NCBI RefSeq assembly: GCF_003269275.1
Contig: NZ_QLTS01000002.1
Coordinates: 152,018 to 216,017 of the forward strand
Source: Phascolarctobacterium faecium DSM 14760
Lineage (GTDB): Bacteria; Bacillota; Negativicutes; Acidaminococcales; Acidaminococcaceae
DNA length: 64,000 nucleotides
Reading direction: 5' to 3'
Numbering within the stretch: the stretch's first letter is position 1; each line of letters starts with the position of its first letter. A model generated the notes under the pieces. The model was not told where the DNA came from. It ran no database searches and saw nothing but the letters and a program-made list of their open reading frames with translations. This document shows positions 5,414 through 32,459 of this stretch, one piece after another. Position numbers and translations under genes: made by a program.

Positions 5414-5444
5414 ACTATACAACCTTGAGCGCACTCCAGGTCAA
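5414..5444 (-). promoter_or_regulatory. MerR-type promoter 1 (iron-sulfur flavoprotein)
   Basis: On the minus strand: TTGACC (5444-5439), a 19-bp spacer carrying GGAGTGCGCTC, then TATAGT (5419-5414). The 19-bp spacing and GAG-N4-CTC core match the five other promoters described in this window. Confidence 0.75.
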
Positions 5445-5485
5445 GTGAATTATTTTCAAATTTTACTGCTTTTCTGTCTGTACAT

Positions 5486-5527
5486 AAAAAAACAATAGGC
5501 GGCAAACCTTTACCACCTGCTGTTTTT
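5486..5527 (-). terminator. Terminator of the MFS gene
   Basis: Imperfect inverted repeat (arms 5488-5502 and 5513-5527); pairing is better as minus-strand RNA (two G-U pairs, one mismatch), where it is followed by a run of U. Confidence 0.6.
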
Positions 5528-5543
5528 GACTTTCTCTATTTTA

Positions 5544-6755
5544 TTAGTGATGCCACAATAAATGCTGGCTTACCGCCAGTTCCAGCCTGACTACTACAAG
5601 GAGGCAAATAATAACCGCAGCAGCAACCATGCCGATAACACCGCTCCAGCCATAGCTTTCCAAAAATACGCCGCCTAAAGTCCCCAGTGAGCTTGCACCG
5701 GCATAATAGAAAAACATATACATCGACGATGACTGCGCTTTATCGCCATGATTAAGTTTTCCTACCCAGCCGCAGGCTACGGAATGTGAACCCAGCATCC
5801 CAAAAGTAAATATAGCCAGGCCTATAAATTTAAATACAAGCGGCTGCAGTAAAGTCAGCAGCCCGCCGGTTAGCATTATCAAAAGGCCCAGAATAAGTAC
5901 GCGCCCGTTACCATGCTGATCTGATAATCTGCCCATATAGGTAGAGCTGAAGGTTCCAAACAAATAGACTACAAACAGCAGCCCTACTACAGTCTGGCTT
6001 AATGAATAAGGCGGTGCCAGTAAGACATAGGAAATAAAGTTAAAAACAGCAACAAAAGAACCCATAATCAAAAATGCAACCAGGTAAATCCATAATAATT
6101 TCTTATTTGCCAGAGCGGTATGAAAGGTTTTTATCAGCTGCAGTCCGCCTGACTGGCGCTGCCGCTGATATTTCGGTTTAGGCAGCAGCATAAAAAAAGC
6201 AATACCGACAGCAAGATATAAAATGCCGATCACAATCAGCCCCATGCGCCAGGAAACAAAATCAGTAATCGCGCTGACCACAAGCCGTCCAAACAGGCCT
6301 CCCACTGTTGTTCCGCTGATATAGATCCCAATTACAGTACCGACGTTAAACGGCTCAAATTCCTCATTGATGTAAGCAATTATCAACGAAGGAAATGCAG
6401 CTAAAAGCAATCCCTGTATCAGACGCATCCCCAGAATAGCTTCAAAACTGCCGCTGAAGCCTATCATAATAGTCAGTATTGCAGCTCCTATCAAGCCGAC
6501 AGCAGTTGCCAGTTTACGGTCAAAACGCGGTGCCAAACCGGCAATCAGCAGCATTGCTGCTGACATCCCCACCAATCCTAAAGATACTGCCAGACTCCCC
6601 TGTACTGCATTGAGCCCAAAGCTGGAAGCAATAACCGGTATAATCGGCTGCACACAGTACTCGGCACCAAAAGCCGCCATACTTCCTAAAAAAATAATAA
6701 ACAGCGTTCGCCAGTAAACCTGCGAACCTGTTTTTATATACTCGCGATTTTCCAC
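5544..6755 (-). CDS. MFS exporter, YnfM-like
   Basis: A 403-residue protein with twelve hydrophobic segments, in the major facilitator superfamily. The closest pattern I recognise is the YnfM/arabinose-efflux group (GAEYCVQPIIPVIASSFG near the N terminus; the basic loop GLAPRFDRKLA between helices 2 and 3). It should sit in the inner membrane and export small compounds by proton exchange; the substrate is not predictable. The start is a GTG at 6755, chosen because AAGGGG lies 7 bases upstream. It is separated by a terminator from the upstream S-component gene. Confidence 0.82.
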   Translation of the reverse strand: MENREYIKTGSQVYWRTLFIIFLGSMAAFGAEYCVQPIIPVIASSFGLNAVQGSLAVSLGLVGMSAAMLLIAGLAPRFDRKLATAVGLIGAAILTIMIGFSGSFEAILGMRLIQGLLLAAFPSLIIAYINEEFEPFNVGTVIGIYISGTTVGGLFGRLVVSAITDFVSWRMGLIVIGILYLAVGIAFFMLLPKPKYQRQRQSGGLQLIKTFHTALANKKLLWIYLVAFLIMGSFVAVFNFISYVLLAPPYSLSQTVVGLLFVVYLFGTFSSTYMGRLSDQHGNGRVLILGLLIMLTGGLLTLLQPLVFKFIGLAIFTFGMLGSHSVACGWVGKLNHGDKAQSSSMYMFFYYAGASSLGTLGGVFLESYGWSGVIGMVAAAVIICLLVVVRLELAVSQHLLWHH

Positions 6756-6823
6756 TTAAAAGCCCCTTTTCTCTATAACCTGCTTTTAATTGTATACCTT
6801 CTGCAGTATTAGTCAATTCCTAA

Positions 6824-6866
6824 AATAAATAAAAGCACCGATGGCGGCCGGTGCTTTTATTTATTT
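6824..6866. terminator. Long-stem terminator
   Basis: A 17-bp perfect stem (6824-6840 with 6849-6865, core AAAAGCACCG / CGGTGCTTTT) downstream of the S-component gene on the minus strand. Confidence 0.85.
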
Positions 6867-6892
6867 TTTCATCTCATTCACCTTTACTGCCG

Positions 6893-7450
6893 TTATTCAC
6901 GCAGCTCGGCCAGCGAAGGCAATGCAGCACGTACAGGCTTCCACAGCATGATCGAAACAGTATAATCGATCAGCGAATGTAAAAATGTACCAACCCCTAC
7001 CAGAACAAGTACGCTCATAACATAACCGTCGGCAAGCTGTTCCGGTTTGAAAATGCTGCCGGCCAGAAAGAAAGGTGAAACGACGGCAACCTCAGCCAGA
7101 GCATGTACAAAGGCCAGCCCACCATTAAACACAGTGCTTGGCAATGGCTTTTCAATGATTTCCGGTATTTTTCTGATCAGCACAGCCCCAAGCAGGGCAA
7201 AACAGATATGGCTGGCAGCCCTCAGAGCAATAATTACAGGCGTCGTCATAAAAAATCCCAGCGTCGTTCCCAAGCAAACTACTGCGGCCAGCTTCGGCGA
7301 TATGAACATCGCAATAAAAATAGCCACATGGCTGGCCAGCGTAAACGACATCGGCCCGATCACTATTTTAGGCATCAACATCGGCACAACGATACCGATA
7401 CCACACAGTACCCCGGCCAATACAAGCTGATTGATATTCTTGCTTTTCAT
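6893..7450 (-). CDS. Membrane protein resembling an ECF transporter S component (NiaX-like)
   Basis: A 185-residue, strongly hydrophobic protein with about six membrane segments. Its N-terminal pattern (ELVLAG-like start QLVLAGVLCGIGIVVPML, then repeated short helices with Ala and Gly) resembles substrate-binding S components of energy-coupling-factor vitamin transporters. The best but uncertain match in my memory is the niacin-type NiaX group. S components capture the vitamin and work with a shared EcfA/EcfT module, which is not in the window. The ribosome site GGGGAG precedes the ATG. It is flanked by terminators on both sides, so it is expressed alone. Confidence 0.55.
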   Translation of the reverse strand: MKSKNINQLVLAGVLCGIGIVVPMLMPKIVIGPMSFTLASHVAIFIAMFISPKLAAVVCLGTTLGFFMTTPVIIALRAASHICFALLGAVLIRKIPEIIEKPLPSTVFNGGLAFVHALAEVAVVSPFFLAGSIFKPEQLADGYVMSVLVLVGVGTFLHSLIDYTVSIMLWKPVRAALPSLAELRE

Positions 7451-7497
7451 TTCGCAGCTCTCCCCTCATCATTCATCCTTCTGACTCATTGATAACG

Positions 7498-7524
7498 AAA
7501 ACAGCGCCTCAGGGCGCTGTTTTT
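7498..7524 (-). terminator. Terminator of the amino-acid ABC operon
   Basis: Stem ACAGCGCC / GGCGCTGT (7501-7508, 7513-7520), extended by A/T pairs, touching the stop codon of the ATPase gene. Confidence 0.85.
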
Positions 7525-8284
7525 ATTTTAACACAGTTTGCAAAAAAGCCTGCAGACGTTCATTTTTCGGATTAGTAAAAATATCCTCAGGCCTGCCCTG
7601 TTCCTGTACTCTGCCATCAGCCATAAAAATAACTTTGGTCGCTACTTCGCGGGCAAAACCCATTTCATGAGTCACTACCACCATCGTCATTTTTTCTTCA
7701 GCCAGTTCACGCATGGTACGCAGAACCTCCCCTGTCAATTCAGGATCCAGCGAAGATGTCGGCTCATCGAAAAGCATGATCGACGGCTTCATCGCTAAAG
7801 CGCGGGCGATAGCTACACGCTGCTGCTGACCGCCGGAGAGCTTCCGCGGATAAACATCCGCTTTTTCGGACAAGCCAACCTTGCCTAAAAGTATTTTTGC
7901 TTCTTCGATTACTTCGGCACGGTCGCGCTTCTGCACCTGCACCGGTGCTTCAATCAAATTCTGCAGCACTGTCATATGCGGAAACAAGTTAAACTGCTGA
8001 AACACCATTCCCATTTTACAGGCAATTCGGCGGCTTTCGTCACCGGGTGCATATACCACCTCACCTGTGCTGTTGGTATCAGCAAGCAGCTCACCGTCAA
8101 TAATGATCGTGCCCCTGTTGATAGTTTCCAGCTTGTTCAAACAGCGCAGCAAAGTACTTTTACCGCTGCCGCTGGGACCGATGACGGCAATGACTTCGCC
8201 TTCTTCGACATCAAGATCTATACCCTGCAAAACGTTCAGTTCCTGAAAACTTTTATGAATATTACGTGCTTCGATTTTTTTCAT
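7523..8284 (-). CDS. glnQ: Polar amino-acid ABC transporter ATPase (GlnQ type)
   Basis: A 253-residue ABC ATPase. Walker [10 protein letters not shown] at residues 36-44, signature LSGGQQQR followed by VAIARAL, Walker [13 protein letters not shown], and the His-switch [10 protein letters not shown] are all intact. Sequence is typical of the polar amino-acid uptake group (GlnQ/HisP/ArtP). It forms the energising dimer under the permease encoded just upstream, with the lipoprotein binding protein as the first gene: order binding protein, permease, ATPase. GGGAG lies 6 bases before the ATG. The substrate is not fixed by this subunit. Confidence 0.93.
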
Positions 8285-8296
8285 GGCTTACTCCCA

Positions 8297-8947
8297 TCAA
8301 TCATACTTCGAAAATCTTTTTTCCAGTTTGTCAAATCCGTAGGTCAAAACCAGCGTCATCAGCAGATAAAAAACACCGGCTACAAGAAACGGAGTAATAC
8401 TGAAATCACGCTGCACCAGATTACGTGTCGTCCGCAGCAGATCATTCATTGCCAAAACATAAATCAAAGAAGTATCTTTAACCAGAGTTATCGTCTCATT
8501 GCTGACAGGCGGCAGGATAATGCGAAAAACCTGCGGCAGAATAATACGGCGCATGGTCTGTACATAATTCATGCCCAAAGTACGGGCCGCTTCATACTGG
8601 CCTTTAGGAATAGCCTGGATACCGGCGCGGAAAATTTCGCAGAAATAAGCGGCATAATTAAGTACAAACGCAAAAATAGCCGCCTGAAAATCATCCATCC
8701 TGATCCCGATACCGGGAATAAAGGGCAATCCGTAATAAACGAATAAAAGCTGCAGCATCAGCGGCGTTCCGCGCAGAAGCCAGACATAGACACCAACGGC
8801 ACTGCGCAGACTGCCAAGTGACGAAACCCTCGCCAGAGCAAGCAGTATACCTAAAGGTATTGACAAAACAATAGTAATAAAAAACAATTTTAAAGTTTCG
8901 ATCGTTCCCAGCCACATCTGCGGCAGGATGGAAATAATATAATCCAT
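8297..8947 (-). CDS. Polar amino-acid ABC transporter permease (HisM/GlnP type)
   Basis: A 216-residue inner-membrane permease with about five helices and the EAA loop for ATPase contact (GQYEAARTLGMNY). It belongs to the His/Glu/Gln/Arg permease family (HEQRo). The start at 8947 is set by GGAG 7 bases upstream; the frame extends to an ATG at 8968 that has no site. It ends 12 bases before the ATPase gene. A hairpin between this gene and the binding-protein gene should lower its expression relative to the binding protein. Confidence 0.9.
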   Translation of the reverse strand: MDYIISILPQMWLGTIETLKLFFITIVLSIPLGILLALARVSSLGSLRSAVGVYVWLLRGTPLMLQLLFVYYGLPFIPGIGIRMDDFQAAIFAFVLNYAAYFCEIFRAGIQAIPKGQYEAARTLGMNYVQTMRRIILPQVFRIILPPVSNETITLVKDTSLIYVLAMNDLLRTTRNLVQRDFSITPFLVAGVFYLLMTLVLTYGFDKLEKRFSKYD

Positions 8948-8983
8948 TATGAGTCTCCGTATCTGCATTAAAAATAAGTAGAG

Positions 8984-9014
8984 TAAAAGGGCCGACAGCT
9001 CATGCCATCGGCCC
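8984..9014 (-). terminator. Intra-operon hairpin, likely leaky terminator
   Basis: Stem GGGCCGA / TCGGCCC (8989-8995, 9008-9014) followed on the minus strand by only four U. It lies between binding protein and permease, an arrangement that commonly gives more binding protein than permease. Confidence 0.65.
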
Positions 9015-9022
9015 GGAGCTTA

Positions 9023-9793
9023 TTAATATTTAGTGATGTCAACACCCATCCATTGTTCAGAAATCTTTTTCATGGTGCCGTCTTTTTTCATTTCATCCAG
9101 TGCCTTGTTGATTTTCTCACTGTATTCTTTATCATCTTTGCGGAAAGCAACCGCTACGACTTCGTCGCCCAGATTTTCTTCCAAAGCTACATATTTATCA
9201 GGATGTTTGACCATATAATAACGAGCCAGAACAGCGTCAACTACCATGGCATCGATACGGCCGGCGTCCATATCCATATAAACAGCAGCAAAGTCAGGAT
9301 ATTTTCTGTAATCTTTCAGGGAAGCCCTCAGTTCATTATTTCTGTCAAGAATATAAGAACCGGTACTGTCATCCTGTACTGCCAGAACTTTACCCTTCAA
9401 ATCAGCAATTTTAGTAATCTCAGACCCTTTAGGAACAACTACCAGCTGAGCATTTACCATATAGGGCTTGGAGAGCGTATAAGCTTCCTGACGCTCCGGG
9501 TTGACTGTAAAGCAGTTCCAGATCGCATCGATACGCTTACCCTTGATCTCTGCTTCCTTGGAAGCCCAGTCGATCGGTTTAAATTCTACTTCCATACCAG
9601 CACGCTTGCAGGCTTCTTTAGCGAGGTCGATATCATAACCGACGATCTCGTTCTTTTCATTACGGAAGCCCATCGGCGCAAAATTGTCATCAAGACCTAT
9701 CACCATTTTTTTAGGACTGTCACTGCCGCAGCCTGCAACCAAAGACAAAGCCATCAGCAGCGTCATAGCCAAAAGTAAAAATTTCTTCATCAT
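9023..9793 (-). CDS. Polar amino-acid binding lipoprotein (SBP family 3)
   Basis: A 256-residue substrate-binding protein. The signal peptide ends in the lipobox LVAGC (Cys at residue 22), so it is a lipoprotein facing the periplasm. The mature part has the family 3 pattern: IGLDDNFAPMGFRNEK, VGYDIDLAKE, IDAIWNCFTVNPER, and DSTGSYIL. An Asp-rich, Trp-containing pocket suggests a polar amino acid such as glutamine, cystine or arginine, but I cannot choose. Two consecutive ATGs (9793, 9790) follow AGAGGGGG; either may be used. First gene of the three-gene uptake operon. Confidence 0.92.
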   Translation of the reverse strand: MMKKFLLLAMTLLMALSLVAGCGSDSPKKMVIGLDDNFAPMGFRNEKNEIVGYDIDLAKEACKRAGMEVEFKPIDWASKEAEIKGKRIDAIWNCFTVNPERQEAYTLSKPYMVNAQLVVVPKGSEITKIADLKGKVLAVQDDSTGSYILDRNNELRASLKDYRKYPDFAAVYMDMDAGRIDAMVVDAVLARYYMVKHPDKYVALEENLGDEVVAVAFRKDDKEYSEKINKALDEMKKDGTMKKISEQWMGVDITKY

Positions 9794-9833
9794 CCATCCC
9801 CCTCTAAGGTGTTGTTTTCTTACTACGCTTTTG

Positions 9834-9862
9834 ATTATACTTTAGTATGCTAAATTTGTAAA
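9834..9862 (-). promoter_or_regulatory. Promoter of the amino-acid ABC operon with dyad in the spacer
   Basis: Minus strand: TTTACA (9862-9857), 17-bp spacer, perfect TATAAT (9839-9834). The spacer holds the inverted repeat TTTAG-N4-CTAAA (9841-9854), a possible repressor site. Confidence 0.65.
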
Positions 9863-9962
9863 GAGGTAAATTGATTTTTTTTGAAATTTTTTGCAGGAAT
9901 TTTCCTTACAGCTGCGAATCTTATTTCAACAGCAGTATTTTATAACGAAAGAGGGGCTTGTG

Positions 9963-10307
9963 ATGATCGTCACTGAAAGAAAAACCGATATTTTTGAACG
10001 CCGGGCCGGCGGTAAAGGCAATACTATTATGGAGCACATCGTCGATGAAAATGTTTACGGCGGCAAAATAGCCGCTTATGCGCGCGTAATTCTTAAACCC
10101 GGCTGTTCACTCGGTTACCACAAACATGAAGGCACCAGCGAAACTATTTATATCCTGCAGGGTACGGCCTTATATAATGACAATGGCACTGAAAGCACGC
10201 TGACTGCAGGCGCAGTTGTTTTCTGCCCCGAAGGCGAAAGCCACAGCATCGAAAATATTGGTCAGGATGACCTGTTGGCTATGGCGCTGATCGTCAACGA
10301 AAAATAA
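9963..10307 (+). CDS. Small cupin-domain protein
   Basis: A 114-residue single cupin. Metal-site motif 1 is G-x-SLGYHKHEGTSETIYILQG (two His and the Glu), motif 2 is GAVVFCPEGESHSIEN (third His). Such proteins bind a divalent metal and act as small isomerases, dioxygenases or sugar-binding domains; no substrate can be named. The start at 9963 follows GAAAGAGGGG by 6 bases; the frame runs further upstream without a site, and a GTG at 9960 is a weaker alternative. It is divergent from the amino-acid ABC operon and ends at a terminator. Confidence 0.85.
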   Translation: MIVTERKTDIFERRAGGKGNTIMEHIVDENVYGGKIAAYARVILKPGCSLGYHKHEGTSETIYILQGTALYNDNGTESTLTAGAVVFCPEGESHSIENIGQDDLLAMALIVNEK

Positions 10308-10332
10308 ATTTCAAACAATTACAAAACATATT

Positions 10333-10372
10333 AAAACACTGCTGTGAACTTTAGTTCACAGCAGTGTTTTTC
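10333..10372. terminator. Long-stem terminator between convergent genes
   Basis: A 17-bp perfect stem (10333-10349, 10354-10370; core CACTGCTGTGAAC) with flanking A and T runs. Confidence 0.88.
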
Positions 10373-10418
10373 CATTTATTCGGATTTATTTTACTGCTCG
10401 CAGCAACGCGGAGCTCAC

Positions 10419-12941
10419 TTAGAACGTGAACCTTAGCCCGGCGTTGACGCTCCACTTTTTGTTGATGTCGCCGCTGAAGCCGCGTGTCACTTCACCGTAG
10501 AAGTTGCCCGTTTTGCTGATCCTGACGTTGCCGCCCAGACCCAGCTCAAACCATGTATCACCGTAGTCATTGTGCTTCGTTAATATATCGTTCGTGCCCC
10601 CTGCGTCCGAGGTCAAAACCAGGTCGCGCTCACCGGCAAATTCGTGCAGCAGGTCGGCTTTCAGGTAGATATCGCTGCCGTTTTCTATCTTCTGTCCCAT
10701 GACGAAGCCGATACGCCCGAGGGCGCTGTTCATGCCTTCGATACGGCCATTGGCCCCACGGTCGGTGGTGTAGTCGATGCTGCCCAGCCTGCCAAGTGTG
10801 AATTGGGCATTAGGCTCGATGAACAGCCCTCTCTCCAGATCAAAGCGTTTGCCGTATTCGACGCTGACGCTGCAGGCGTGCTGCTTGTATTCGGCTTTGT
10901 CAGGGTAGTCGCCGTAGGATTCCAAATCAGTCGATACGATGCCGTAACGGGCCGTGACATTGGTATAACTGCCGTTATCTGCCGTCCACACGCTGTACAG
11001 GCTGAAGCTTTTCAGTTTGTCTTTGCCGCTGCCCGGGCTGTAGCTGCCTGTGCCGTCGCCGTAGTCTACCGCCAGGCCGTAGATGCTTTTGGCGTTATCG
11101 GCTTTGTCGTAACCAAACTGGTACAGGTTGTAGCGGCCTTCGTAGTTATCGCCGCTGAACCTGCCCGCCTGCGTACGGGCCCAGATGCCGTCCGCGTGTT
11201 CACTGCCGTTGCCCAGTGCTCCCAGACGGCTGCGCAGGCTGTCGTTGGTGTTGCGCCACAGGGCGTAGCTGTTGTTGGCTGCCTCCAAAAGTACCCGGGT
11301 GTCGTTATTGGCAGTTTTGGCTACTTTTGTCAGATACCAGTTGTTGGCCGACTGCCCCAGCGTGTCGCCTTTGGCCAGGGTCGGGTCGATGTCCCACAGG
11401 CCGCCGGCATTGAATCCTTTGCCTTCAAAGGTCAGTTTGCCGCTGTTATCGGTGATCAACAGCTGTTTATGTTCACCTGTGACCTGGATGCCGTTCAGCT
11501 TGCTCAGGTCCCTGATCTGGACGTAGTGGATGCCGACGTCGGCATCTTTGATGATCAATTTATCACTGTTGCTGTCATTGTCGCTGCCAAGGTCGGTATC
11601 CATGATAAAGGTGTTGCCGCTGCCGCTCAGTTTGTCGATGGTCAGGGTCTCGTAGGCAGGAGGGATAAAGGCTCTGTTCCTGCCGAAGCTGTGGTCCGTC
11701 ATATCAATACTGGCGTTAGTGGCTGACAGGGTGCCGTTGATGGCAAAACTGCCGCCGCTGACTGCTGACAGTTCCAGACTGCCGCCTGTCATCGTGAGAC
11801 CGCTGACGATGCCGCCGCTGGCGAGCTGCATCATGCCGCCGCTAACTTCGGTTGCCAGGGCTGTGCCGCCGCTGGCGATATTCTGCGTGCCGCCGTTGAT
11901 GGTGGTATTGGCTGCTGTGCCGCCTGTCAAAACAGCCTGCGTGCCGCTATTCAGGGCTCTGACCGTGCCCACGCCGCCGGCAGAGACTGTCTGCGCACCG
12001 CCATTCATGCTGTTGGCGATACCTGTCTGCCCAGCTGTCAAATTCCAGCTATCGCCTGCCGTTACCGTCCCGACAATGCCAGTGCCGCCGCCCGAGATGA
12101 TCTGCTTTGCTGTAACGTGCTCGACATAGCCAGTGCCGCCGCTGGCTATTTGCTGCTGGCCGCCTAAAATCCCCAGGGCTGAACCCACGCCACCGCTGCC
12201 TATTTGCTGCGCACCGCCATTCATGGTGCTGACCGTACCGCTGCCGCCGCTGGAGATAGTCTGATTGCCGCCATTAATGGTGCTGACCGTGCCCACGCCG
12301 CCATTGGAGATACTCTGAAAGCCGTTGTTTATGGTACCGACTGTGCCCTTGCCGCCGCTGAAGATATTTTGCGAACCAAACCAGTTGTCTATAGTGCTGA
12401 CCGTACCACTGCCGCCGCTGAAGATATTCTGCAGGCCGATCTTCATCGTGCTGACTGTACCCTTACCGCCGCTGAAGATATACTGAAGGCCGCTGTTCAT
12501 GACGCTTACCGTACCCACGCCGCCGCTGGCGATATTCTGCTGGGCGCCGTTCATAGTGCTGACCGTACCGCTGCCGCCGATGGAGATATTCTGCGTGCCG
12601 CCGTTCATGGTACTGACCGTGCCGCTCTGCCCGGCAGTTATATTCTGGCCATCGCCGGAAACCATGGAAGCTACGCTGGCATTGCCGTCATACTCAGTTG
12701 CTTCGGCCCGGGCGAATATGGCCCGGTCCACCATGTCTGCCAGCTGCGGCAGCACGGCGTAGTCCAAAGGCTCGGCCTCGCTGCGTGCCGGCTGCGGCGC
12801 AGCAACCAGCTTCTGTTCTGCCCCGGCCAGCGCTGCCAGCGGAGCTACTGTGTTCACAAGGTTCATGCCCATGACTACTGTCGCCAGGATCTTTTCCGCT
12901 TTCTTTTTGTCCATACCTCTGCTTTTTCCGTTGTTTTTCAT
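10419..12941 (-). CDS. Autotransporter with strand-loop-strand repeat passenger (O-heptosylation target type)
   Basis: An 840-residue secreted surface protein. Residues 1-45 form an extended signal region (basic KKKAEK then a hydrophobic stretch ending near ALAG). About residues 95-395 are roughly sixteen repeats of ~19 residues, pattern GGxQNIxSGGxGTVSTMN, the strand-loop-strand type that forms a beta-helix and is modified with heptose in AIDA-I/TibA proteins. A linker follows, and the last ~280 residues form the outer-membrane beta-barrel ending in the aromatic GLRFTF. The ATG overlaps the TGA of the methyltransferase gene as ATGA, which fixes the start; a GTG at 12971 is rejected. A predicted adhesin or biofilm factor; it proves an outer membrane. 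Confidence 0.9.
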   Translation of the reverse strand: MKNNGKSRGMDKKKAEKILATVVMGMNLVNTVAPLAALAGAEQKLVAAPQPARSEAEPLDYAVLPQLADMVDRAIFARAEATEYDGNASVASMVSGDGQNITAGQSGTVSTMNGGTQNISIGGSGTVSTMNGAQQNIASGGVGTVSVMNSGLQYIFSGGKGTVSTMKIGLQNIFSGGSGTVSTIDNWFGSQNIFSGGKGTVGTINNGFQSISNGGVGTVSTINGGNQTISSGGSGTVSTMNGGAQQIGSGGVGSALGILGGQQQIASGGTGYVEHVTAKQIISGGGTGIVGTVTAGDSWNLTAGQTGIANSMNGGAQTVSAGGVGTVRALNSGTQAVLTGGTAANTTINGGTQNIASGGTALATEVSGGMMQLASGGIVSGLTMTGGSLELSAVSGGSFAINGTLSATNASIDMTDHSFGRNRAFIPPAYETLTIDKLSGSGNTFIMDTDLGSDNDSNSDKLIIKDADVGIHYVQIRDLSKLNGIQVTGEHKQLLITDNSGKLTFEGKGFNAGGLWDIDPTLAKGDTLGQSANNWYLTKVAKTANNDTRVLLEAANNSYALWRNTNDSLRSRLGALGNGSEHADGIWARTQAGRFSGDNYEGRYNLYQFGYDKADNAKSIYGLAVDYGDGTGSYSPGSGKDKLKSFSLYSVWTADNGSYTNVTARYGIVSTDLESYGDYPDKAEYKQHACSVSVEYGKRFDLERGLFIEPNAQFTLGRLGSIDYTTDRGANGRIEGMNSALGRIGFVMGQKIENGSDIYLKADLLHEFAGERDLVLTSDAGGTNDILTKHNDYGDTWFELGLGGNVRISKTGNFYGEVTRGFSGDINKKWSVNAGLRFTF
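11750..12660 (-). repeat. Array of ~57-bp coding repeats in the autotransporter passenger
   Basis: About sixteen imperfect units of roughly 57 bp, each encoding ~19 residues around the consensus SGGxGTVSTMNGGxQNI. Units nearest the N terminus are most alike; later ones diverge. Most units keep reading frame, so gain or loss of a unit would change passenger length without truncation. Confidence 0.8.
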
Positions 12942-13612
12942 TGGCCTGTCTTCTTTCCATATACTCGGCACCAGTGTTTAGTTACTACCGATATTTTCTC
13001 CGCAGCCAGTTCCAGTTCGCTAAGAGCTGTGAACTGCTGCTCCAAAAGTGCAGCCACGTCTGCCGATGCTTCCGGCTGTTCGTCGATGTAGAATTTTTTG
13101 CGGCCGTTTTCGCTGTCTATCACCGGCACTGCACGGTGTTTTAAATTCAGCACCAGCAGTTTATCGGCTACCGCCCGGCTCAGCAGCTTTATGTCATGGG
13201 CCGGGTCGAAGACGTGCTGCAGGACATAGACTGCTATGGCGCAGTCTGCCTTTAGTCCGCCACGCTCTGCCAGGGCGCAGAACATTTCGTAGGAGATGAC
13301 GCTGAAGCGGTCGCTGTTTACATACTCTGCCGCCATACGGCGCATGTCGGGCGAGATATCGACTCCCAGCACCCGGCAGTCGTACTGCTCAAGCAGGGCT
13401 TTGGACAGCCTGCCTATGCCGCAGCCAAAGTCCAACACTGTTTTGCCGTTTAAATCGCCCAGTCCACCGGCAAACAGAGTTTTCATGTATTCTGTTTCCC
13501 GCTCCCAACGCTGGCGGTAGTCACCGCCCTGCTGTTCTTCTGTCAGGATGATGTTTTTTGCCTGTTCCAGGTCCTGTACTTTGAACATGTCTTTGTAGTA
13601 GTAAAGGCTCAT
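12938..13612 (-). CDS. SAM-dependent methyltransferase within the autotransporter glycosylation cassette
   Basis: A 224-residue class I methyltransferase. Motif I is VLDFGCGIGRLSKAL (SAM binding), followed by the acidic ribose contact GVDISPDM and a CAIAVYVLQHV motif. The substrate is not evident. It is locked between the O-heptosyltransferase and the autotransporter by ATGA overlaps on both sides (13612-13609 and 12941-12938), implying coupled translation and a joint role, perhaps methylating the protein-linked heptose or the passenger itself. That role is inference; I do not know of a described methyltransferase at this position. No membrane segment; cytoplasmic. Confidence 0.85.
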   Translation of the reverse strand: MSLYYYKDMFKVQDLEQAKNIILTEEQQGGDYRQRWERETEYMKTLFAGGLGDLNGKTVLDFGCGIGRLSKALLEQYDCRVLGVDISPDMRRMAAEYVNSDRFSVISYEMFCALAERGGLKADCAIAVYVLQHVFDPAHDIKLLSRAVADKLLVLNLKHRAVPVIDSENGRKKFYIDEQPEASADVAALLEQQFTALSELELAAEKISVVTKHWCRVYGKKTGQ

Positions 13613-14970: not shown

Positions 14971-15052
14971 AGTCACATCTCCCTTTTTCAGATAGATTCT
15001 TTTGTTTTCTTTTGTTTTTCTTTTGTTAAAACGGTGTTTTTATTCCCCAGAG

Positions 15053-26016: not shown

Positions 26017-26025
26017 AAAAAACAC

Positions 26026-26056
26026 AAAATAACCTGCATACGGCAGGTTATTTTAT
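26026..26056. terminator. Bidirectional terminator
   Basis: Stem AAAATAACCTGC / GCAGGTTATTTT (26026-26037, 26043-26054) between convergent genes. Confidence 0.88.
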
Positions 26057-26063
26057 TTCTTCT

Positions 26064-26768
26064 TTAATATTTGCAGCCCAGAGAAATGGCTTCGGTCGGG
26101 CAGGACTGTCTGCATTTACCGCAGACAATACATTCCCTGTCGCCTACCCGTTTACAATCCATCAAGCAACTGCGTACGCAGCGCTGGCAGGCGGTACATT
26201 TACGCGAATCTACCTGCATGCCAAAAACGGCGATCCTGTTAAACAGGCTGTAAAAAGCTCCCAACGGACAGAAAAAACGACAAAAAGGCCGATAGATAAA
26301 CAGCGCCGCAGCAGCCAAAAGTCCAATGATCCAACGCCAGTCCAGACCATGCAGATCAAAGAAATACAGATTGCAGGCAAACAGCAGCAGAACCACATAT
26401 TTAAAATAACTTAAATAGTACGTAATTTTATTTTTAGACAGCTTCAACATCGGCAGCTTATCTAAAAGCTCCTGCGCCCAGCCAAACGGACACAGCCAGC
26501 CACAGATCATCCGGCCAAAAAACAGAGCACACAAAATGAGCAGCCCCCAAACCCGCCAGCCCAAAGGTAAAGTAAAACCGGTCAGGGTATGCTGCGTCAG
26601 CCCCCAGGGACATCCGGCTTCTGCATAGCGGCAATAGCCGCAATTAACTCCGGGCAGACAAACATTTTTCCAGGTCATATCGGCCCCCAGCAGATTGGCG
26701 GCACCACGCCCATTATACAAAACCGTCGCCGTAAGCTGCGTCGTCCAGCGTTTAAAATCCTTAACCAT
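26064..26768 (-). CDS. NapH/MauN-type membrane ferredoxin protein
   Basis: A 234-residue protein. Four to five hydrophobic segments carry two CxxxCP membrane motifs (GWLCPFGWAQE near residue 92 and RFFCPLGAFYS near 166), and the C terminus has two 4Fe-4S ferredoxin motifs (CTACQRCVRSC and CIVCGKCRQSC). An extra Cys-rich N-terminal loop (CLPGVNCGYCRYAEAGC) faces the other side. NapH-like proteins pass electrons from the quinone pool or ferredoxin across the membrane to periplasmic acceptors. Its promoter has the MerR-type 19-bp spacer, and it is divergent from a lipoprotein of the same apparent regulon. The periplasmic partner is not in an obvious operon. Confidence 0.88.
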   Translation of the reverse strand: MVKDFKRWTTQLTATVLYNGRGAANLLGADMTWKNVCLPGVNCGYCRYAEAGCPWGLTQHTLTGFTLPLGWRVWGLLILCALFFGRMICGWLCPFGWAQELLDKLPMLKLSKNKITYYLSYFKYVVLLLFACNLYFFDLHGLDWRWIIGLLAAAALFIYRPFCRFFCPLGAFYSLFNRIAVFGMQVDSRKCTACQRCVRSCLMDCKRVGDRECIVCGKCRQSCPTEAISLGCKY

Positions 26769-26797
26769 TTTTACCGCTCCTTTCCTGTATTGCTTTC

Positions 26798-26828
26798 ATT
26801 GTAAGGGCTGGAGTTGACTCACAGTCAA
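26798..26828 (-). promoter_or_regulatory. MerR-type promoter 2 (NapH-like ferredoxin)
   Basis: Minus strand: TTGACT (26828-26823), 19-bp spacer with TGAGTCAACTC, TACAAT (26803-26798). Same architecture as the other five promoters. Confidence 0.72.
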
Positions 26829-26857
26829 GCAGTTTGCAAAAAATCTACAAACAACGC

Positions 26858-26888
26858 TTGACCTGGAGCAGACTCCAGCATATAAACT
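26858..26888 (+). promoter_or_regulatory. MerR-type promoter 3 (cyclophilin-fold lipoprotein)
   Basis: TTGACC (26858-26863), 19-bp spacer carrying the perfect dyad CTGGAG-N4-CTCCAG, then TAAACT (26883-26888). A TATAAA at 17-bp spacing overlaps it, so a weak basal promoter is possible. It is divergent from promoter 2, 30 bp away. Confidence 0.68.
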
Positions 26889-26964
26889 CACATATAGAAG
26901 CCGTATAAGCAACGGCAGACCCTATCTATTTGCAACTTACAAACAGAGAAACGGAGGAAATACC

Positions 26965-27459
26965 ATGCTGAAAACTCTGGCCCTGACGCTTACTTTATTA
27001 CTGAGCTTTACTGTGGCTGCCTGCAGCAGCACGTCCGGTACCAATGCCAAAATCGACCAGACAACAGCTAACGCAGCTCAGACCGCTACAACAGACGCAG
27101 TCCAACGCATCAGGCTGACACTCGCCAACCAAGACGAGCTTATCGTCAAACTCAATGGCACCAGAGCTGCAGAGGATTTTTTGAGCCTGCTGCCGCTGGA
27201 ACTGACCTGCAAAGATTTTAATAATACCGAAAAGGTAGCTTATCTGCCGCGGCGCCTGGACACACAGGGCGCTCCTGCCGGTTTTGATCCTCAAACAGGC
27301 AGTTTTGCTTATTATGCACCTTGGGGTAATCTGGCATTTTTTTACCGTGATTACGGTTATGCCAACAGCCTCATTGAACTTGGTACTGTTGAAAGCGGTA
27401 TTGAAAAACTGGCCGCTTTCGATAATGATTTCACTATCAAACTGGAACGCCTGCCCTAA
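26965..27459 (+). CDS. Cyclophilin-like-fold lipoprotein
   Basis: A 164-residue lipoprotein: signal peptide with lipobox VAAC (Cys20), a short Thr/Ala-rich linker, then one domain from about residue 48 (IRLTLANQDELIVKLNGTRAAEDFLSLLPL ... YLPRRL ... YYAPWGNLAFFYRDYGY ... LGTVESG). This pattern belongs to the bacterial cyclophilin-like family often found beside flavodoxin and cupin genes. Proline isomerase activity has not been shown for the family as far as I know. GGAGG precedes the ATG. It sits behind a MerR-type promoter and faces the periplasm, probably with the NapH-like ferredoxin and lipoprotein flavodoxin. Confidence 0.82.
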   Translation: MLKTLALTLTLLLSFTVAACSSTSGTNAKIDQTTANAAQTATTDAVQRIRLTLANQDELIVKLNGTRAAEDFLSLLPLELTCKDFNNTEKVAYLPRRLDTQGAPAGFDPQTGSFAYYAPWGNLAFFYRDYGYANSLIELGTVESGIEKLAAFDNDFTIKLERLP

Positions 27460-27496
27460 AAAAACAGAGCTTGCATAAATGCAAGCTCTGTTTTTT
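27459..27496. terminator. Shared bidirectional terminator overlapping both stop codons
   Basis: A 17-bp stem (27459-27475, 27480-27496; core ACAGAGCTTGCA) between the convergent lipoprotein and alcohol dehydrogenase genes; its arms overlap the last base(s) of each stop codon. Confidence 0.88.
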
Positions 27497-28667
27497 AGGC
27501 TTTCAGCGTTTCCTTCAATATCTCAACGATCTCTTCTTTAGTCAGTACTTTATAACCGCCCTCAAGAATGAACGAACCCTGAGCGATCCCGTCAAGCATC
27601 GTTTCATCGACGCCAAGTTCCCTGCCGTTAAGTACAAGTCCCAGCTCCCTCATATAGCTTTCCATCGCCGCAAGGCCTGCCTGAGCTATCTGTTCATCAG
27701 TTTTCCCCTCAGGACGCACATCCCATACATTGATGGCAAAGCGTTTGAATTTCGCCAGTCCGTACGGCATGATGTGCCTGTAATATGGCAGCGACACAGC
27801 GGCCAGAGTCATTCCGTGCGTAGCGTCAGTGTAAGCGCCGATCGACTGACCGATCATATGCACCATCCAGTCTGTCGACTTTCCTTTAGCTACCAGGGTA
27901 TTCAAGGCCCATGTAGCGATCCACATAATATTGCTTCTCGCTTCATAATCTTCAGGGCTTTGCACCGCGATCCTGGAACTGTGGATCAGCGAACGCAGCA
28001 AGCCTTCCATAAGATAGTCGGAAGTATTGTCGTCAGTTCCGGAAAAATACTGTTCCAAAATATGCGACATGATATCAAAAAATCCGGCAACCATTTGATA
28101 ACGCGGGAGCGTAAAAGTATAAGTCGGATCAAGTATCGAAAATCTGGGGAACACATTATCACCAAACACCCGCCCGATTTTAGCTTTAGCCGCATGATTG
28201 GTAATAACTGAACCGCCGTTCATCTCCGAACCTGTACCAACCATAGTCAGAACACAGCCAACCGGGATAATCTTATTATCCACCGCTTCCATCCGCAGAT
28301 AATATTTTTCCCATGGATCAGTTTCGCAGTAAGCGGAAACTGAAACAGCCTTGGCATAATCACAGACAGAACCGCCGCCGACTGCCAGGATCAAATCGAC
28401 CTTGTTTTCTTTGGCTATCCTGCAGCCTTCATATAATTTTTCCAGTGTGGGATTAGGCATTACACCTGCATCCTCAAAAACTGTTTTGCCCCCGTCCCTC
28501 AAAAGCTTGACCACGTTTTCATAAATACCGTTTTTCTTAATCGAACCGCCGCCATATACCAGCATGACATTTTTACCATAGCATGCCAATTCCTGCGGCA
28601 GATTTTCTAATGAATTTTCTCCAAAATACAATTTGGTAGGATTGGAATAAACAAATTTACCCAGCAT
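27495..28667 (-). CDS. Iron-containing alcohol dehydrogenase (YqhD/BdhA type)
   Basis: A 390-residue group III alcohol dehydrogenase. The NAD(P) loop VYGGGSIKKNG is near residue 40, DLILAVGGGSVCDYAKA near 97, and the iron ligands lie in FDIMSHILEQYF and in TDATHGMTLAAV. Length and motifs match NADPH-dependent butanol dehydrogenases and YqhD, which reduce short and toxic aldehydes. Its gene follows a cupin gene by 13 bases and shares the MerR-type promoter at 29242-29272, which supports a role in aldehyde or electrophile detoxification, as with the AdhR-controlled adhA of Bacillus. Cytoplasmic. Confidence 0.92.
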   Translation of the reverse strand: MLGKFVYSNPTKLYFGENSLENLPQELACYGKNVMLVYGGGSIKKNGIYENVVKLLRDGGKTVFEDAGVMPNPTLEKLYEGCRIAKENKVDLILAVGGGSVCDYAKAVSVSAYCETDPWEKYYLRMEAVDNKIIPVGCVLTMVGTGSEMNGGSVITNHAAKAKIGRVFGDNVFPRFSILDPTYTFTLPRYQMVAGFFDIMSHILEQYFSGTDDNTSDYLMEGLLRSLIHSSRIAVQSPEDYEARSNIMWIATWALNTLVAKGKSTDWMVHMIGQSIGAYTDATHGMTLAAVSLPYYRHIMPYGLAKFKRFAINVWDVRPEGKTDEQIAQAGLAAMESYMRELGLVLNGRELGVDETMLDGIAQGSFILEGGYKVLTKEEIVEILKETLKA

Positions 28668-28680
28668 TATTTTTGCTCCT

Positions 28681-29082
28681 TTATTTCAAATTTCCATATT
28701 CTGCATCTGTTACCGGTTCCAGCCATTCATTGGACACCCCCGCGGCGGGCACTTCGACTGCAAGGTGTGCAAACCAGCTGTCAGGAGCCGCTCCATGCCA
28801 GTGTTTCACTTCAGGCGGGATATTCACCACATCACCCGCGTTCAGCTCCCGGGCCGGTTTCCCCCACTCCTGATAATAACCTCGTCCGCCTGTGACAAGC
28901 AGTATCTGCCCGCCTTGATGATGGATATGCCAATTATTGCGACAGCCGGGCTCAAAAGTAACATTGCCAATAACTACTCCTTCTGTTGTCAGCATCTTCA
29001 AATAGCTCTGCCCCACAAAATACCGGGCATAGGCATCATTTTTTTCACCCATGGGAAACACGCTTAATTTTTCTTCCAACAT
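28681..29082 (-). CDS. Cupin-domain protein cotranscribed with alcohol dehydrogenase
   Basis: A 133-residue cupin. Metal motifs are visible: NVTFEPGCRNNWHIHHQGGQILLV (two His and Gln/Glu position) and GDVVNIPPEVKHWHGAA (third His). This subgroup is commonly found near carboxymuconolactone-decarboxylase-like and flavodoxin genes. The start at 29082 is 10 bases after GGAG; GTGs at 29088 and 29091 are too near the ribosome site. First gene of the operon with the alcohol dehydrogenase, behind a MerR-type promoter with a ~150-base leader. Reaction unknown. Confidence 0.85.
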   Translation of the reverse strand: MLEEKLSVFPMGEKNDAYARYFVGQSYLKMLTTEGVVIGNVTFEPGCRNNWHIHHQGGQILLVTGGRGYYQEWGKPARELNAGDVVNIPPEVKHWHGAAPDSWFAHLAVEVPAAGVSNEWLEPVTDAEYGNLK

Positions 29083-29241
29083 TCTCACCACACTCCTTTT
29101 CTATCACATTCTCACATCGTTCTGCGCTCAAATCTGTTGTAGCTGAAAACGCAGTCCGCACTGATGCAGAACCGCCAAATCACCTGCTTTTTATTGCACC
29201 CGCTCATAACTAAAATGCCGGAACTTCCGTTCCTTATCTGT

Positions 29242-29272
29242 ATCATATCCAATGGAGTTAACTCCAAGTCAA
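29242..29272 (-). promoter_or_regulatory. MerR-type promoter 4 (cupin-alcohol dehydrogenase)
   Basis: Minus strand: TTGACT (29272-29267), 19-bp spacer with the perfect palindrome TGGAGTTAACTCCA, then TATGAT (29247-29242). The best-formed of the six sites. Confidence 0.82.
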
Positions 29273-29322
29273 GCAGCTTTTTCAAAAAATTAATACCGGC
29301 TGTCTGACAACAAAACCGATAT

Positions 29323-30252
29323 TTAAAAAAGCTCTGCCTGCAGTGACCGCAGCGCCCGCAAGTTTCTTTCCGTAACCTTATCCGCAGGCTCCAGCTCACT
29401 GCACAGCAGCGGCGAACTGCTATTTCCAGCCGTGATCTGCTGCAGCTGTCTGCGGCTGTCATTAGCATAACAATAAATGCAGCCATGCAGACAGGTGTTA
29501 TAGGCGCCGATATCGATACTGGCGGCACAGCCGCATTCACCGCGCTGATTTTTATCTTTGACTGTATCAAGACGGCACCCGCCCACACGGCCAAGCAGCT
29601 CTGCGTCGATGCAACTGGCATGCCCAATCCCCAGATCAGCTAATTCTATAGCTTCCGCACAGGTTTCCAGCTGCAGACCATATTGCCGGGCTGTTTGGGA
29701 CAATACGGCCGCAAGCCGCCGCTGCTCGTCCTCACTCAGGCCTCTCAGCCCTGCCTGATGCAGACCTGCCTTGATCTTAGGATAATAATCAAGGAAACTG
29801 ATAATACATTTTTTCGTACTGTCGGCCAGCTGCGCTGCCAGTTCCTCAAAAACCGCTGCGTGATACTGCAGGTCATAGCGTGCACTTAACAGGATCGGGT
29901 CATAGCGCCAGATCATTCTTTCCGCACCTATCTTCTGCGCCAGCTGCCGAAATATCTCTATCCTCACCGCCAATGGCGGTAAAGCTGCTTCTACGTCAGC
30001 AGCATACGCATTGAGCGTAAATTGAAAATAATAAGCATACGCATCCAGAACTGACAGCTGCTTAAGCATCGGTTCTGGATTTTTTGTCCAGAAAACCAAC
30101 CCATCCACGACCTCCGGCCGCAGGCTGATCCTGCTTACCTGATGAAGGTTCAGAGGATTGCGTACCAGTACATACTGTTCCTGCAGCCGCTTTTGGAACC
30201 ATTCCCAATAAAAAGCAGGAATATCAGTTCGCCGGCTGGCACTGATAATCAT
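29323..30252 (-). CDS. DUF1848 protein with a radical-SAM-like Cys motif
   Basis: A 309-residue soluble protein of the DUF1848 family. It begins with the family signature MIISASRRTDIPAFY and contains VFWTKNP and RYDPI. Near residues 240-265 a cluster of Cys (GECGCAAS, then CLHGCIYCYAN) holds a CxxxCxxC-like arrangement that suggests a 4Fe-4S cluster, as in radical SAM enzymes, but placed near the C terminus. No reaction is known to me. AGGAGGG precedes the ATG. It lies inside the MerR-controlled island, divergent from the merR gene, but I see no 19-bp promoter for it. Confidence 0.82.
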   Translation of the reverse strand: MIISASRRTDIPAFYWEWFQKRLQEQYVLVRNPLNLHQVSRISLRPEVVDGLVFWTKNPEPMLKQLSVLDAYAYYFQFTLNAYAADVEAALPPLAVRIEIFRQLAQKIGAERMIWRYDPILLSARYDLQYHAAVFEELAAQLADSTKKCIISFLDYYPKIKAGLHQAGLRGLSEDEQRRLAAVLSQTARQYGLQLETCAEAIELADLGIGHASCIDAELLGRVGGCRLDTVKDKNQRGECGCAASIDIGAYNTCLHGCIYCYANDSRRQLQQITAGNSSSPLLCSELEPADKVTERNLRALRSLQAELF

Positions 30253-30354
30253 TCGTCATCCCTCCTCTTTTTGATAAACTGCTTAGAGCTTCACTTGTTT
30301 CTATTATACACTGATCTATATCGAACAGGCCGGCTAATTTTTTTCAGAAAACGC

Positions 30355-30385
30355 TTGACTTGAAGTTAACTCCAAACGCTAGAAT
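30355..30385 (+). promoter_or_regulatory. MerR-type promoter 5 (merR autoregulation)
   Basis: TTGACT (30355-30360), 19-bp spacer with the dyad TTGAAGTTAACTCCAA (first T in the -35), then TAGAAT (30380-30385). It drives merR and the downstream CMD gene. Confidence 0.8.
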
Positions 30386-30414
30386 GAATTTAAAAGTTAC
30401 AGGAGGTGATTTTT

Positions 30415-30816
30415 ATGAATATTACCGAAGCAGGCAAACAGACTTCGCTGACACCCAATACTCTGCGTTATTACGAACGGATCGGGCTTATCCCACCTGT
30501 CGCCCGCAATAAAGGCGGGACCCGGGAATACACTTCCAAAGACCTCTGCTGGATAGAATTTATAAAAACCATGCGGTCAGCCGGTCTCTCCCCGGAAACT
30601 TTGATAGAATATGTCGCCTTGTCACAGCTCGGCGACACCACGCTGGAAGCCCGTAAGGATATTTTAGAACTGCAGCGGGAAGTGCTGCAGGAAAAATTGG
30701 AATTTATCCAGCAAACCTTAGCCAGAATAGATATCAAAATAGAAAACTACCGTACTGACATTTATCAGAAAAACCATCCGTCACAAAATCAAAAACAAGA
30801 GGAGGCAGACCTATGA
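30415..30816 (+). CDS. MerR-family regulator (AdhR/NmlR-like)
   Basis: A 133-residue transcription factor: winged helix at residues 1-70 (EAGKQTSLTPNTLRYYERIGLIPP, then GTREY and DLCWIEFIKTMRSAGLS) and a C-terminal dimerising coiled coil to ~residue 115. The sequence belongs to the aldehyde/electrophile-sensing branch that includes AdhR and NmlR. Those carry a reactive Cys in the segment FI-x-C-MR; here that place is Thr52 and the only nearby Cys is Cys45. An excellent AGGAGGTGAT precedes the ATG. It overlaps the next gene as ATGA, sits behind a site of the type it should bind, and is the only MerR protein in the window, so it is the prime candidate regulator of all six 19-bp promoters. Confidence 0.9.
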   Translation: MNITEAGKQTSLTPNTLRYYERIGLIPPVARNKGGTREYTSKDLCWIEFIKTMRSAGLSPETLIEYVALSQLGDTTLEARKDILELQREVLQEKLEFIQQTLARIDIKIENYRTDIYQKNHPSQNQKQEEADL

Positions 30817-31667
30817 AAAACTTTATTTCCATGTTCCTGATGACATCCCTGCTGCTGGGGGGGATGACCTTTACAATTGGCAAAATGAGCGTGTGTGCCG
30901 CTTCAAAAAACAGGATTGAAACAGCACAGCAAAAACAGGCGCATCTTTTCGGCAGCGCCAAAAACAAACTTGCCGCCACCGACCCGGATTTTGCTCAGAC
31001 CATGGACAATTTCATTTACGGCGACGTTTATTCCCGTGGTAAGCTGACCGACAAACAACGTGAACTGCTGACGATCACCGCACTTACCGCCAGCCAGACT
31101 TTAGACAGCCTGCCTGCACAAGTGCAGGCCGCACTGAAAGCCGGCGCTACCCCGGTAGAAATAAAAGAAACACTTTATCAGTGCGCTCCCTATGTGGGCT
31201 TTCCCAAAACGGTCGGCGCTTTGGAAATCACCAATAAAGTTTTTAAAAAACAGGGCATTAAAATGCCGCTGGCAAACCAGAGTACTGTTACCGAAGCCAC
31301 CCGTTTTGACGACGGCTTTAAAGTACAGGGTGAGATTTTCGGAACAGAACACATTGCCGCCATGCACAAAAACTCGCCGGCTAATCAAAAACATATAGCC
31401 AATTATCTTTCAGAGTTCTGCTTTGGCGATACCTACACCAGAAACGGCCTTGATCTGCAAATGCGGGAATTGATCACCTTATGCGCTATCAGCACTATCG
31501 GCGGTGCGGAACCTCAGGTCAAAGCCCATGTACAGGCCAATCTCAATGTCGGCAACGATAAAGAACTGATGCTGGACGCAGTTACCCAGTGCCTGCCATA
31601 TATTGGTTTTCCACGTACGCTGAACGCCATCGCCTGCATCAATCAGATCATCCCCGCCAATGCCTGA
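30813..31667 (+). CDS. Exported protein with two carboxymuconolactone-decarboxylase-like domains
   Basis: A 284-residue protein with a signal peptide (hydrophobic to about residue 25, cleavage near VCAAS). Two tandem CMD domains follow, at about 50-145 and 170-280; each has the pattern GDxYxRxxLxxxxRELxT and a conserved Cys and His-free core (YQCAPYVGFPKT, TQCLPYIGFPRT). CMD proteins include AhpD-type peroxidase partners with CxxC pairs; here each domain keeps only a single Cys before P-Y-x-GFP. The gene is coupled to merR by ATGA. Function is unknown; a periplasmic redox or lactone chemistry role would fit its neighbours. Confidence 0.86.
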   Translation: MKNFISMFLMTSLLLGGMTFTIGKMSVCAASKNRIETAQQKQAHLFGSAKNKLAATDPDFAQTMDNFIYGDVYSRGKLTDKQRELLTITALTASQTLDSLPAQVQAALKAGATPVEIKETLYQCAPYVGFPKTVGALEITNKVFKKQGIKMPLANQSTVTEATRFDDGFKVQGEIFGTEHIAAMHKNSPANQKHIANYLSEFCFGDTYTRNGLDLQMRELITLCAISTIGGAEPQVKAHVQANLNVGNDKELMLDAVTQCLPYIGFPRTLNAIACINQIIPANA

Positions 31668-31685
31668 TAAGCATTATATGTAAAA

Positions 31686-31728
31686 GAATACCTGTGCTGA
31701 CTTTAAAAGTCAGCACAGGTATTTTATT
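31686..31728. terminator. Bidirectional long-stem terminator
   Basis: A 16-bp stem AATACCTGTGCTGACT with its complement (31687-31702, 31708-31723) between convergent genes. Confidence 0.9.
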
Positions 31729-31738
31729 TATCTGCAAA

Positions 31739-32389
31739 TCATTGTGCCGTCCGCTTTTTACCAAACGTATCTATTTCGCCGCGTACACCTTCCAGCCAGC
31801 TGCTGATCAGTCGCTGCATCTTCCCGGTCCCGATATCCTGCAAAGCCAGTCCTTTTGTTATATACGCCTGCGGGCAGCTTGCGGCTATAGCATCCAGGCT
31901 CTTTTCGATACCGCTTTTTTTACTGGTACAAAACGGTACGAGCACTTTACCTGAAAAATCATGCGCTTCTAAAAAAGTACGCACGGCCATAGGCGTTGTT
32001 CCATACCAGACAGGATAACCGATGAAAATCGTATCATACTGGGAAATATCGGCTAAATCCACCGCCAGAGGAGGCCGTTCATTACCTGCAAGTTCCTGTT
32101 TAGCTATTTTACCGCATTCACTTTTATCCTGCGGATAAGGCACCTCAGTCTGAATTGCAAACAGCTGTCCCCCGACCGCAGCCTGTATCTGCCAGGCGGC
32201 CAGTTCTGTATTCCCGGTATGTGAAAAATAAGCAATCAGTATTTTAGGATTAGTAGGCAAGCCTTCCGGTCCTTTAATCGTAACCGGCTTATTTTCATCC
32301 GTTTCTTCATACCCGATCCCGCCACAGCCTCCGACCGCAGCCATCAACAGCAGGCCCAGCAGCAGCAGATATTTCTTGCAGCTTCGCAT
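31739..32389 (-). CDS. Flavodoxin-domain lipoprotein
   Basis: A 216-residue protein: signal peptide with lipobox AVGGC (Cys22), a short linker, and a flavodoxin fold from about residue 49. The FMN phosphate loop is SHTGNTELAA, and the FMN-ring loops are GYPVWYGTTPMAV and FCTSKKSGIEKS, as in the flavodoxin_4 group. Flavodoxins are normally cytoplasmic; membrane anchoring on the outside is predicted from the clear lipobox. Start follows GGAGGG. Its promoter has the MerR-type 19-bp spacer. It may receive electrons from the NapH-like ferredoxin, which is inference. Confidence 0.88.
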   Translation of the reverse strand: MRSCKKYLLLLGLLLMAAVGGCGGIGYEETDENKPVTIKGPEGLPTNPKILIAYFSHTGNTELAAWQIQAAVGGQLFAIQTEVPYPQDKSECGKIAKQELAGNERPPLAVDLADISQYDTIFIGYPVWYGTTPMAVRTFLEAHDFSGKVLVPFCTSKKSGIEKSLDAIAASCPQAYITKGLALQDIGTGKMQRLISSWLEGVRGEIDTFGKKRTAQ

Positions 32390-32428
32390 AGTATCCCTCC
32401 AAGCATCAAATCATTCTTTCTTAATTGT

Positions 32429-32459
32429 ATCATAAACCTTAGAGTTTGCTCTATGTCAA
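32429..32459 (-). promoter_or_regulatory. MerR-type promoter 6 (lipoprotein flavodoxin)
   Basis: Minus strand: TTGACA (32459-32454), 19-bp spacer with AGAGCAAACTCT, then TATGAT (32434-32429). Confidence 0.75.

Follow-up and report, generated by a model that had tools for sequence, protein, structure and literature searches.

Regulators of the MerR family bind as dimers within an overlong promoter spacer and hold expression at a low level; once activated, they kink the DNA so that the -35 and -10 boxes come into line (PMC9909328). AdhR (YraB) of Bacillus subtilis controls three target genes, and its Cys52, which corresponds to Cys54 of Haemophilus influenzae NmlR, is required for activation as is its NmlR counterpart (PMC4776306); AdhR has been described with a single conserved cysteine (PMC3499171). 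Here, a window of 64,000 nucleotides from Phascolarctobacterium faecium DSM 14760 (positions 152018-216017 of contig C2 in a genome of 2,317,131 bases and 21 contigs) was analyzed, in which six predicted promoters share one operator-like dyad. Sequence comparison makes it probable that these promoters belong to an AdhR/NmlR-type MerR regulon, in which MerR2, encoded outside the window, would be the conserved controller and MerR1, encoded within it, a diverged paralog.

Read directly in the sequence, all six sites match the pattern TTGACNNNRAGNNNNCTCN7TANNNT used for the searches, with exactly 19 bp between the boxes and (G/A)AG-N4-CTC at the same offset in the spacer. The dyad centre lies 7 bp after the -35 hexamer, which is the offset given for the 21-bp CueR/CadR-type sites (PMC5045206). 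Both hallmarks of MerR-activated promoters, namely 19-20 bp between the -35 and -10 boxes and a dyad in the spacer whose distance to the -35 box is constant, are thus present in each of the six, in accordance with the architecture that the first-pass annotation had assigned to them; its descriptions of the downstream genes likewise agree with the Pfam matches. The bases bordering the half-sites, a T on one side and an A on the other, were unspecified in the pattern and yet proved invariant as well. The site at 26798, divergent from that at 26858 and 29 bp apart from it, has the lowest score of the set, and its left half-site (TGTGAG, not TTNGAG) is without the outer T that is constant elsewhere.

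The motif does not occur at random frequency: scanning the 2.3-Mb genome with the exact pattern gave nine matches, of which the window holds six, while a seventh lies 22.6 kb left of it. The backwards pattern gave none in all 61 genomes searched. When nine sites were placed at random, six fell inside 27 kb in none of 20,000 trials. When the spacer length was allowed to vary from 15 to 23 bp, 75 of the 84 matches in the 61 genomes were found at exactly 19 bp. Moreover, 57 of the 59 sites tested precede the start of a gene on the same strand as compared to 29% of random positions, and under strict criteria 50 of 59 do so as compared to 6%. A weight matrix built from other genomes only, this genome being left out, was run on stretches of the genome, and the whole 2.3 Mb was scanned with the pattern, allowing two mismatches at most. 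In the stretches scanned, the matrix detected 14 sites scoring between 29.7 and 49.5 bits (Table 1) and nothing else above 12 bits, while the reversed control gave nothing above 8. Two of the 14 (C4:120872 and C3:164753) probably belong to the adjacent regulators MerR3 and MerR4, which leaves 12 in the set. The single regulon postulated from the window is retained, although its extent was underestimated, since the six units make up less than half of the approximately 12-14 sites present genome-wide. The set probably switches on aldehyde and redox stress genes.

The same arrangement recurs in relatives and beyond. In the 61 related genomes the site precedes genes for carboxymuconolactone decarboxylase (CMD) proteins, cupins, flavodoxins, aldo-keto reductases (AKR), iron-containing alcohol dehydrogenases (Fe-ADH) and DUF362 proteins, as well as NapH-like, cyclophilin-like, metallophosphoesterase, DUF1624/HGSNAT-like, short-chain dehydrogenase/reductase and metallo-beta-lactamase (MBL)-type genes, the binding-protein gene of an ATP-binding cassette (ABC) transporter and a gene for a regulator most like MerR2. 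A stricter form of the pattern matched 146 of the 381 Negativicutes genomes searched, with zero control matches in any, and FMN reductase is among the families behind the motif across the class. Exact matches, 71 in total (control 0), occur in 56 of 80 named loci that encode MerR2 relatives and were taken from many phyla, and they mostly lie before AKR-AdhR operons or the regulator itself; in Clostridium caldaquaticum the gene order is FeADH-CMD-cupin-AdhR. Furthermore, 20 of the 21 genomes that encode an AdhR-type protein have the site, as compared to 10 of the 40 that do not (p = 8e-8), and an AdhR-type gene is present in each of the 13 genomes with at least two sites (p = 3e-8), both tests ignoring kinship. 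In the regulator tree, members of the class cluster closely with Pelosinus.

Since the operator belongs to the AdhR/NmlR class and its geometry is identical to that of the B. spizizenii AdhR operators in position, spacing and dyad, the mechanism is of a known kind. The first-pass annotation calls the regulon undescribed, but the operator is not of an undescribed kind in view of the 71 sites at AdhR loci. Its likening of the set to AdhR/NmlR control was borne out, as was the view that it is wider than the described AdhR/NmlR regulons, with at least 12 units here against the three target genes of B. subtilis AdhR. As in the AdhR regulon, a same-clade MerR protein with C52 and its own operator is found together with CMD (YraC in B. 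subtilis) and alcohol dehydrogenase targets, so that operator position and gene content are those of an AdhR regulon with an autoregulated regulator. The half-sites differ, being AAG/CTT in AdhR operators and GAG/CTC here, the thiol-dependent AdhA there is replaced by Fe-ADH and AKR here, and in the MerR2-type proteins another cysteine (C44) is conserved besides C52. NmlR of Haemophilus, Neisseria and Streptococcus (NF041849; PDB 5D8C, 5D90, 5E01) shares family, size, a sensor cysteine (Cys54) at the C52 position and the aldehyde/redox role predicted here, whereas the H. influenzae regulon is a small adhC-estD locus, the short MerR proteins of this genome score under the equivalog cut-off and MerR1 is without the cysteine. 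Among proteins of solved structure, the Listeria MerR protein LMOf2365_2715 (PDB 3GP4; 1.1e-32) is nearest to MerR1 in sequence, and the sensor cysteine is likewise absent from it (Gln there). No description of so wide a regulon, of the second cysteine of MerR2-type proteins or of the cysteine-less paralog was found in the literature searched, which included few subscription journals, so that this absence is no proof.

The genome contains nine MerR-domain matches, five of them short and all five NmlR/AdhR-like. The best NCBIfam match of these five is NmlR (NF041849), with scores under the equivalog cut-off of 175 in each case (131.5 for MerR1 and 141.8 for MerR2). The window indeed holds no MerR gene other than that of MerR1, as noted in the first-pass annotation, but MerR1 is not the sole candidate for the regulator of the six promoters: four further NmlR/AdhR-like MerR proteins exist in the genome, and the MerR2 type accompanies the regulon elsewhere. 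MerR2 carries the sensor cysteine C52 within the motif FIKCMR, and C44 and C52 are near-invariant in the aligned MerR2-type proteins of the class. C52 is present in 132 of 143 AdhR-type rows, a count biased by the fact that the rows were partly chosen by the CMR pattern, and 107 of those 132 also have C44, which lies eight residues before C52 and is found in most AdhR-type proteins outside Bacillus. MerR1 possesses Thr52 at the sensor column, with Leu44 and Cys45 instead of C44. No ortholog of MerR1 was found among approximately 760 genomes, with a top identity of at most 57% in the class or phylum samples, and a scan of named genomes with MerR1 as query gave no relative; every best match examined has MerR2, not MerR1, as its higher-scoring partner. 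The tree places MerR1 on a long branch in a 122-row group containing AdhR (82/82), its position inside the group being unsettled. MerR1 is probably a divergent paralog that would bind the same or overlapping operators. Its recognition helix is near-identical to that of MerR2. By its own operator MerR2 would be autoregulated, and the same is implied for MerR1.

Residue 15 of the recognition helix may relate to the operator bases. It is Asp in 123 of 141 rows, and with sites paired to regulators by proximity, 206 of 234 half-sites at D15 loci are GAG/CTC, as compared to AAG/CTT in all six half-sites of the B. spizizenii AdhR with A15. MerR2 has D and MerR1 has N at this position. In the window, 11 of 12 half-sites are GAG/CTC, a slight hint that these sites suit the D15 of MerR2 no less than MerR1; the lone AAG lies in the promoter of MerR1 itself.

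Chance does not account for these sites. Long spacers and -35 and -10 boxes arise by chance too, as would be expected if the six were ordinary sigma-70 promoters with a fortuitous dyad, but the zero control matches in 61 and in 381 genomes, the spacer of exactly 19 bp and the conserved downstream genes make this exceedingly improbable. As for the regulator, MerR1 alone might run the six promoters, MerR2 being limited to its own AKR-MerR2 locus, which would be in line with the place of the MerR1 gene within the cluster, the strength of its own site and the shared recognition helix. This appears unlikely given that MerR1 has neither C52 nor an ortholog in the genomes searched and that relatives with only MerR2-type proteins have the same motif and gene set. 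Quite conceivably, both proteins act on the same operators in full crosstalk, with the cysteine-less MerR1 as a modulator in the role of competitor, constitutive partner or sensor of another signal via C45; the operator consensus common to both, the autoregulation predicted for both genes, the place of both in the AdhR-containing group of the tree and the clear residue difference at the sensor position are consistent with this, whereas N15 of MerR1 may shift its specificity. More tentatively, the two paralogs may run a wide electrophile-stress regulon in this class by reading one operator, MerR2 as a conserved cysteine sensor and MerR1 as a lineage-specific, fast-evolving protein that no longer has the sensor cysteine, differs in a residue that reads the DNA and could thereby serve as a damper or a second signal input.

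MerR2 as the conserved controller is favored because its type accompanies the motif and gene set elsewhere, and it is the likelier master regulator by this comparison. Several points weigh against it. The MerR1 gene lies inside the cluster with a strong site of its own, and MerR1 could therefore be the main regulator here. The sites adjoining MerR3 and MerR4 indicate that AdhR does not have this operator class to itself. In one genus (g57, family f15), many genomes carry an AdhR-type gene and no exact site, hence the link between AdhR and the site is not absolute. Finally, the residue-15 comparison loses force because sites were assigned to regulators by proximity. Among the remaining short MerR proteins, MerR5 (contig C7) has a cupin neighbor, yet no site at up to one mismatch.

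Following this, we propose that a MerR dimer, probably of MerR2, would occupy the dyad T-N-GAG-N4-CTC-N-A between boxes that at 19 bp are 2 bp too distant. Modification of C52 by an aldehyde, another electrophile or an oxidant would be the trigger, upon which the modified regulator would kink the DNA, bring the boxes into register and turn on carbonyl and redox detoxification genes. The AKR, Fe-ADH, flavodoxin and flavin mononucleotide (FMN) flavoproteins, CMD/AhpD-like proteins, cupins and iron-sulfur electron carriers among the putative targets would contribute to carbonyl and quinone reduction, peroxide-type detoxification (CMD/AhpD-like proteins) and electron supply. Binding, the inducer and the division of labor between MerR1 and MerR2 are what we infer in this scheme.

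Table 1. Predicted promoter/operators, the genes behind them and further sites of the set in P. faecium; positions refer to the window unless a contig is named.
Feature	Position	Strand	Details
Predicted promoter/operator, FMN-reductase/iron-sulfur flavoprotein	5414..5444	-	TTGACC-TGGAGTGCGCTCAAGGTTG-TATAGT, 38.8 bits
Predicted promoter/operator, NapH-like gene	26798..26828	-	TTGACT-GTGAGTCAACTCCAGCCCT-TACAAT, 29.7 bits
Predicted promoter/operator, cyclophilin-like gene	26858..26888	+	TTGACC-TGGAGCAGACTCCAGCATA-TAAACT, 32.6 bits
Predicted promoter/operator, cupin/Fe-ADH unit	29242..29272	-	TTGACT-TGGAGTTAACTCCATTGGA-TATGAT, 38.0 bits
Predicted promoter/operator, MerR1-CMD operon	30355..30385	+	TTGACT-TGAAGTTAACTCCAAACGC-TAGAAT, 46.8 bits
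Predicted promoter/operator, flavodoxin lipoprotein	32429..32459	-	TTGACA-TAGAGCAAACTCTAAGGTT-TATGAT, 34.3 bits
FMN_red-domain flavoprotein, Cys cluster (CIACHGCAKTGRC)	4730..5365	-	PF03358, 2.8e-28
NapH/MauN-like membrane ferredoxin-type protein	26064..26768	-	Fer4_5 + Fer4
Cyclophilin-like (Cyclophil_like2) lipoprotein	26965..27459	+	PF18050, 3.9e-31
Iron-containing alcohol dehydrogenase, second gene of cupin/Fe-ADH unit	27495..28667	-	PF00465, 6.6e-44
Cupin, first gene of cupin/Fe-ADH unit	28681..29091	-	PF07883; 151 bp from 29242 site
MerR1, NmlR/AdhR-like MerR regulator	30415..30816	+	L44, C45, T52, N15
Exported protein, two CMD (AhpD-like) domains	30813..31667	+	PF02627 x2
Lipoprotein flavodoxin (Flavodoxin_4)	31739..32389	-	PF12682, 2.8e-29
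MerR2	C2:129015-129356		22.7 kb left of window; own operator, C52, D15
Site before regulator MerR2	C2:129381
Site before HGSNAT_cat-domain membrane protein + 4Fe-4S aldo-keto reductase	C2:131491		upstream of MerR2
Site before second lipoprotein flavodoxin	C4:38743
Site before metallophosphoesterase	C4:43066
Site before DUF362 lipoprotein	C1:435235
Site before peptide/nickel-type ABC transporter operon	C13:40359
Site of cupin-CMD-hydrolase	C4:120872		beside MerR3
Site of CMD	C3:164753		beside MerR4

The start of the FMN_red flavoprotein gene lies 49 bp from its site, and homologs stand behind the same operator in relatives; in one of these (G004) the site also precedes homologs of both the NapH-like and the cyclophilin-like protein. 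The cupin and Fe-ADH genes are separated by 14 bp, the double-CMD gene overlaps that of MerR1 by 4 bp, and homologs of the flavodoxin lipoprotein are found behind sites both in relatives and at other places of this genome. A DUF1848 gene (29323-30252) between the regulated units is without such an operator. The ABC transporter operon (L046, 5360-9711) is an unexpected member of an aldehyde/redox regulon; in G018 (L119) and G028 (L118) the operator stands directly before a homologous ABC binding-protein gene. LysR-type genes (L042, 6531-7409; L047, 9875-10774) adjoin other flavodoxin/hydrolase and cupin genes in this genome, and the gene set may therefore have further regulators. Elsewhere in the window, a large repetitive, autotransporter-like surface protein with GG-rich repeats is encoded at 10419-12971, adjoined by glycosyltransferase-like and methyltransferase-like genes (12938-14976). 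On contig C6 (G000, 32000-46000), a near-identical tandem block of approximately 4.7 kb (L049, ~3186-8000 and 8025-12047) comprises a gene for a MerR-like protein of 279 aa, a UbiD-like gene and a transporter gene, one of its copies being interrupted by a stretch of N; it represents either a recent duplication or an assembly artefact and accounts for two identical-scoring MerR matches of 310 aa.

Taken together, the motif is a precise and almost noise-free means of tracing a probable regulon for aldehyde/redox stress through a large bacterial class, and it ties genes of so far unassigned function, namely those for DUF362 proteins, cyclophilin-like and MBL lipoproteins, the NapH-like ferredoxin and the metallophosphoesterase, to one response. 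Moreover, the covariation of residue 15 with the operator bases and the presence of a cysteine-less paralog make operator choice and sensing testable in this clade.

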